From assembly GCA_002167555.2 (NCBI GenBank), contig NHDL02000003.1, forward strand, positions 166,571 through 175,276: a stretch of 8,706 nucleotides of DNA. The letters are read 5' to 3'. Positions within the stretch are counted from its first letter, which is position 1. Each line of letters starts with the position of its first letter. The notes under the pieces are model-generated. The model saw nothing but the letters and a program-made list of their open reading frames with translations. It was not told where the DNA came from and ran no database searches. A program made the position numbers and the translations under genes. The stretch is from Deltaproteobacteria bacterium TMED58 (GTDB taxonomy: Bacteria; Desulfobacterota_D; UBA1144). Below, piece after piece: positions 1,112 through 1,857 of the stretch.

Positions 1112-1857
1112 ATGCCTTCATGTTGTTTACAAATTTACCAGAGACTATCTCATTTCGAAGAAGATAAAAATTATTGGAAAGAATATACTGATTTTTATGA
1201 ACGTTTTTGGGGTGGCCCAACCTCACCATATGGATTATGGTTTGGAAATGAATATGGAACCTTTCAAAGTGCGTTGTGTGAACACTTAAGTATTAAAGAA
1301 AGCGAAATAAAAGAATGCCTGTTTATTAAAGAAGATAATGAGAACTTTATTTGTCCGGATAATAAATTAGATAAAACACCATTCTCGTATCTTGTTGATA
1401 ATATTATTCCAATTCATTGGTTTTTTATTTTCAACGAAAGTCAAAAAAAATATTCAAGACACACTGGGGTTTTGGTGCAATACATTATAAATGTGGAATA
1501 AATTCCGCTATAAAACTTATAAATGATTTCATATCAACGGCGAATAGAACCGATACAAATGATAACGAGCTTAAAAATTATATTGATGTTATTAAAAACG
1601 ATTTATCCGAACTGTCAGACTGGTTCATGAAATTTCCATCTGATAGTATTATAATTTTAAACTATGGAGATTTACTGGCTTCATTCCCTATGAATAGTTT
1701 GGATAAAGAAGATTCGGTAAGAATAATAGTTGATTTTAAAGATATGCTCTCCTCATTAAAATATGAATCAGCTAAGGACTTATTCAACTTCTTAATTGAA
1801 CGCTGGACCAATATAGAGTTTGCTAATCAGAAAGATTTAAGTAAATCATCAAATTAA
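1112..1857 (+). pseudogene. Unrecognised 248-residue protein gene split by a -1 frameshift at A8
   Basis: Two overlapping open frames encode the halves of what looks like one protein. The first (1112-1501) starts at an ATG 11 bases after a weak AGG and reads sensibly up to PIHWFFIFNESQKK. It then continues as an unlikely tail to a stop at 1499-1501. The second frame is open through 1417-1857 and carries on naturally with IFKTHWGFGAIHYKCG. The switch falls in eight A at 1443-1450. A -1 shift there, or one extra A, yields 113 + 135 = 248 residues. The joined protein is acidic and soluble, rich in aromatic residues (YERFWGGPTSPYGLWFGNEYG, near residues 29-49, written here as a region), with no signal peptide or membrane segment. 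I do not recognise a family. It may be a true pseudogene, a base missed in the homopolymer, or a gene expressed by slippage. Its 3' end overlaps the opposite gene by 9 bases. Confidence 0.6.

Follow-up and report, generated by a model that had tools for sequence, protein, structure and literature searches.

A one-base length difference in a run of A splits one ordinary gene in the window, the whole 8,706-nucleotide stretch of Deltaproteobacteria bacterium TMED58 DNA analyzed here. The difference is best seen as accidental, with no dedicated mechanism behind it (probability roughly 0.78). On the plus strand, an upstream ORF (positions 1112-1501, starting with the ATG at 1112) encodes 129 amino acids; the first 113 make up the N-terminal portion of a conserved 248-residue protein and the final 16 are out of frame. 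A second open frame on the same strand (1417-1857) overlaps the first by 85 bases and encodes the C-terminal part from about position 1450, with residues conserved across the class kept. Within the overlap lies a homopolymer of eight A's (1443-1450), flanked by C on the 5' side and T on the 3' side. The first frame reads the run as CAA AAA AAA, which places an in-frame A_AAA_AAA heptamer at 1444-1450. A step of -1 within the run gives the 248-residue protein, including the stretch QKKIFKTHWG. A sequence-only reading made before this analysis had proposed that a -1 slip at A8 joins two overlapping frames into 248 residues, and both the coordinates and the reading are confirmed on the sequence. 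Since the two halves align with adjacent segments of a single protein in relatives, the two frames can be taken as one gene, beyond what chance would give. The gene is best annotated as a single 248-amino-acid protein with a frame problem.

Matches to the joined protein are present in 54 of the 57 class genomes, the window's own included. Three congeners match over the full length with 74-77% identity (E 1e-129 to 1e-135), nine other family members are 50-61% identical, and further genomes of the class (about 40) show about 30-40% identity. The congener G004 (77% complete) has a distant paralogue only. No internal stop occurs among the matches listed, and all those spanning the break are in a single frame, the window genome excepted; the arrangement of overlapping frames is conserved in none of the relatives. 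In a codon alignment the family members have CAA or CAG, then AAA, then AAA or AAG, followed by a codon for V, I or T, all in one frame. This alignment puts the change of frame in the A run, where the window is one base short and out of register with its relatives. Because the relatives are uninterrupted and in register, the intact frame is ancestral and the interruption is private to the window genome among the genomes compared. A continuous frame, in reads or in relatives, had been named beforehand as what would reduce the split to a sequencing error; for the relatives, it is what the codon alignment gives.

The family is characterized by the motifs WGGPTSP, THWGF and LNYGD, and often there are two paralogous copies per class genome. 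The window genome (G000) has an open-frame paralogue (G000:C1:2909-3628) at about 30% identity. Profile searches against Pfam, NCBIfam and PDB with the protein and 20 relatives gave no significant family, and AlphaFold models of two relatives (mean pLDDT 48.7) are too poor for a fold search. An Rfam scan of the window gave no match, and the exact site was not found in viral contigs.

The accidental loss of a base could have more than one source. With about even odds it would be a consensus or assembly error in the draft genome. Otherwise it may be a real and very recent frameshift allele, generated by replication slippage and carried by some of the cells; this is possible but the less probable source. 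Such an allele would lead to a short, probably nonfunctional product, with the intact distant paralogue remaining. The ranking that is most likely has a consensus error first and a recent null allele next, with an indel tolerated through slippage as the minority view. Both a recent indel and a base dropped during sequencing or assembly had been listed in the sequence-only reading; both are supported, and the sequences compared do not tell them apart.

The window genome is probably a draft assembled from metagenomes. Illumina consensus errors at an A8 run are normally rare, which would count against an error if this genome was read on that platform. The position of the break site, outside any visibly merged block, also counts against an error: the window contains no N, and the nearest is 1.4 kb from the break. 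Isolated single Ns occur in G000 and in the sister assemblies G001 and G002, and in G000 they are gathered in blocks, which suggests merging of contigs from different samples. Clusters of single Ns probably mark the overlaps of merged contigs. In a published marine pipeline, Megahit contigs were merged with Minimus2 at 95% identity (PMC5769542), and the N pattern and the names of sister records (NAT510, SAT211) lead us to infer a similar origin for the window genome. One cluster of single Ns (G000:C4 up to 166,570) stops right before window position 1.

ORFs were compared, by stretches, over about 41% of the window genome (353 kb compared) and parts of three congeners. Apparent frameshifts by tRNA genes, at stretch ends and in N-rich blocks were set aside, as were a few G002 cases with short HSPs. 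In the 353 kb, homopolymers break the window gene, pepA once and murC twice; irregular breaks are also found in N-rich stretches of G000. The names murC, pepA and gltX are ones we take from the sequences themselves. In murC (L084, G000:C1) there is a T9 break at about 27,430 and an A8 break at about 28,395, and the congeners are uninterrupted. The pepA gene (leucyl aminopeptidase; L035) loses its frame at an A11 run (G000:C4, about 35,210). In G002, gltX (L081) is out of frame at A10 (G002:C11, about 30,560), and in G001 a lipoprotein gene that we presume from its sequence to be DsbA-like (L190) is out of frame at A9 (G001:C17, about 16,920). G003, which is free of Ns, has no homopolymer break in the 303 kb compared.

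Each of these breaks is private to one genome, and a different gene is affected in each sister assembly. Wherever a gene matching murC, pepA or gltX was found in another congener, it is uninterrupted. No second intact copy was detected for murC or pepA in G000 or for gltX in G002. Against contig merging as a cause, N-free stretches hold the break of the window gene, the two in murC and the one in G001. The rate in G000 is not clearly exceptional (4 breaks in 242 long runs versus 2 in 513 for the others, Fisher p 0.09). The occurrence of further one-base breaks at long runs, in the same assembly and in sister assemblies, supports an accident. Two breaks in a cell-wall gene (murC), or one in the gene for glutamyl-tRNA synthetase (gltX), mean either that the breaks are not real or that they are rescued; with murC presumably essential, its two breaks point to sequence error.

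That several genes are broken in an AT-rich genome of roughly 1 Mb also fits indels tolerated through slippage. In this alternative, which is unlikely for the window gene, the indel in the A run is real and RNA polymerase slippage brings some of the transcripts back into frame. In its favor, the genome is low in G+C (30%) and rich in A/T runs, the breaks outside N-rich stretches sit at runs of 8-11, single-copy and probably essential genes are hit (murC and pepA, and gltX in G002), and the downstream half of the window gene is conserved. Somewhat more doubtful is the wider claim that the lineage tolerates real homopolymer indels in murC, gltX, pepA and the window gene by transcriptional or translational slippage. 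If the murC, pepA and gltX indels were real, slippage-tolerated frameshifts would reach beyond insect endosymbionts.

There are precedents for such rescue. Eight genes of Blochmannia vafer are frameshifted in poly(A) (PMC3017870), and genes frameshifted in poly(A) tracts of Blochmannia and Buchnera are the subject of Tamas 2008 and Wernegreen 2010, as cited in that paper. As these systems are represented there, they share with the present case one-base indels in A/T runs, a small genome of low G+C, and genes that are otherwise intact and often essential. They differ in that some frameshifts are shared by more than one species and full-length products have been reported, whereas the breaks described here are private, the assembly is a draft and A8 is a short run. 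In Citrobacter rodentium tssM1, an A11 run gives about 20% transcriptional frameshifting and both products were shown (PMC4256274). That gene, like the one in the window, is interrupted soon after the A run, but the run is three bases longer than A8. One large survey stands against the view that indels are tolerated by slippage (PMC5574713). It is also a difficulty that every break is private to one genome, with none shared across species, and that the two murC breaks would require a double rescue.

The lengths of A runs in coding sequence also make efficient slippage at the break less probable. Compared with synonymous shuffling, A7 runs (286 versus 226.8 expected) and A8 runs (126 versus 95.6) are above expectation, A9 runs are reduced (29 versus 43.0), and runs of A10 or longer are strongly depleted (4 versus 24.3), a sharp threshold in length. 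Reasoning from the avoidance of runs to the cost of long ones follows PMC1088944. Because avoidance sets in at A9-A10 and not at A8, we infer that A8 is probably not efficiently slippery in this genome and that the cost of runs starts at 9-10; run lengths would look no different if replication slippage were the cause.

An established pseudogene under decay is very unlikely. The distant open-frame paralogue in G000 could make a loss tolerable, but there is no other lesion in the gene, residues invariant across the class are retained past the break, and the downstream half is evolving no faster than elsewhere. Rates were compared by branch lengths alone, as NG86 estimates of dN/dS suffered from saturation of dS in most cases. 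Every pair, whether or not it includes the window, shows greater variability in the downstream half than in the upstream half. In separate trees for each half, the window tip branch is 0.042 upstream and 0.227 downstream, and the L003 tip branch is 0.032 and 0.269; the L002 path in the downstream half is about 0.34. The downstream half is no faster on the window lineage than on either of these. Its conservation and unexceptional rate leave three possibilities for the break: a very recent origin, an artifact, or compensation. Conservation of this half fits selection past the break, but it is also expected if the break is very recent or an error.

Least likely of all is programmed -1 ribosomal frameshifting at A_AAA_AAA. 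The sequence-only reading had offered this, or transcriptional slippage, as a way to obtain two products, of 129 and 248 residues, and a perfect in-frame heptamer within the overlap is indeed there; neither version fares well, as A8 is probably not prone to slippage, no relative has the split and all specify the complete protein in one frame, the heptamer is commonplace with no counter-selection against it, and no stimulator was found, simple folds of the downstream RNA falling within shuffles (z -1.1, -0.2 and +0.5). The site resembles the A_AAA_AAR heptamers of IS elements that use such frameshifting (PMC4066793), but unlike those it has no detected stimulator, no conserved overlap of frames, and a heptamer at chance frequency. 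Frameshifting in E. coli at heptamers that lack stimulators does not exceed about 10 times a background of 0.055% (PMC4066793). In the window genome the in-frame heptamer occurs 268 times, in 173 of the 408 genes with relatives, and it is in frame in 92 of the 146 A8 runs on the coding strands of these genes. It is neither avoided nor enriched, and does not occur beyond chance (239 observed versus 230.6 expected from synonymous shuffles of 354 N-poor genes). When a genome is AT-rich, finding a slippery heptamer where a frame breaks means little. The A run itself is present because of base composition and a Gln-Lys-Lys stretch conserved in the family, and the lysine codons of this genome are 8179 AAA and 2857 AAG.
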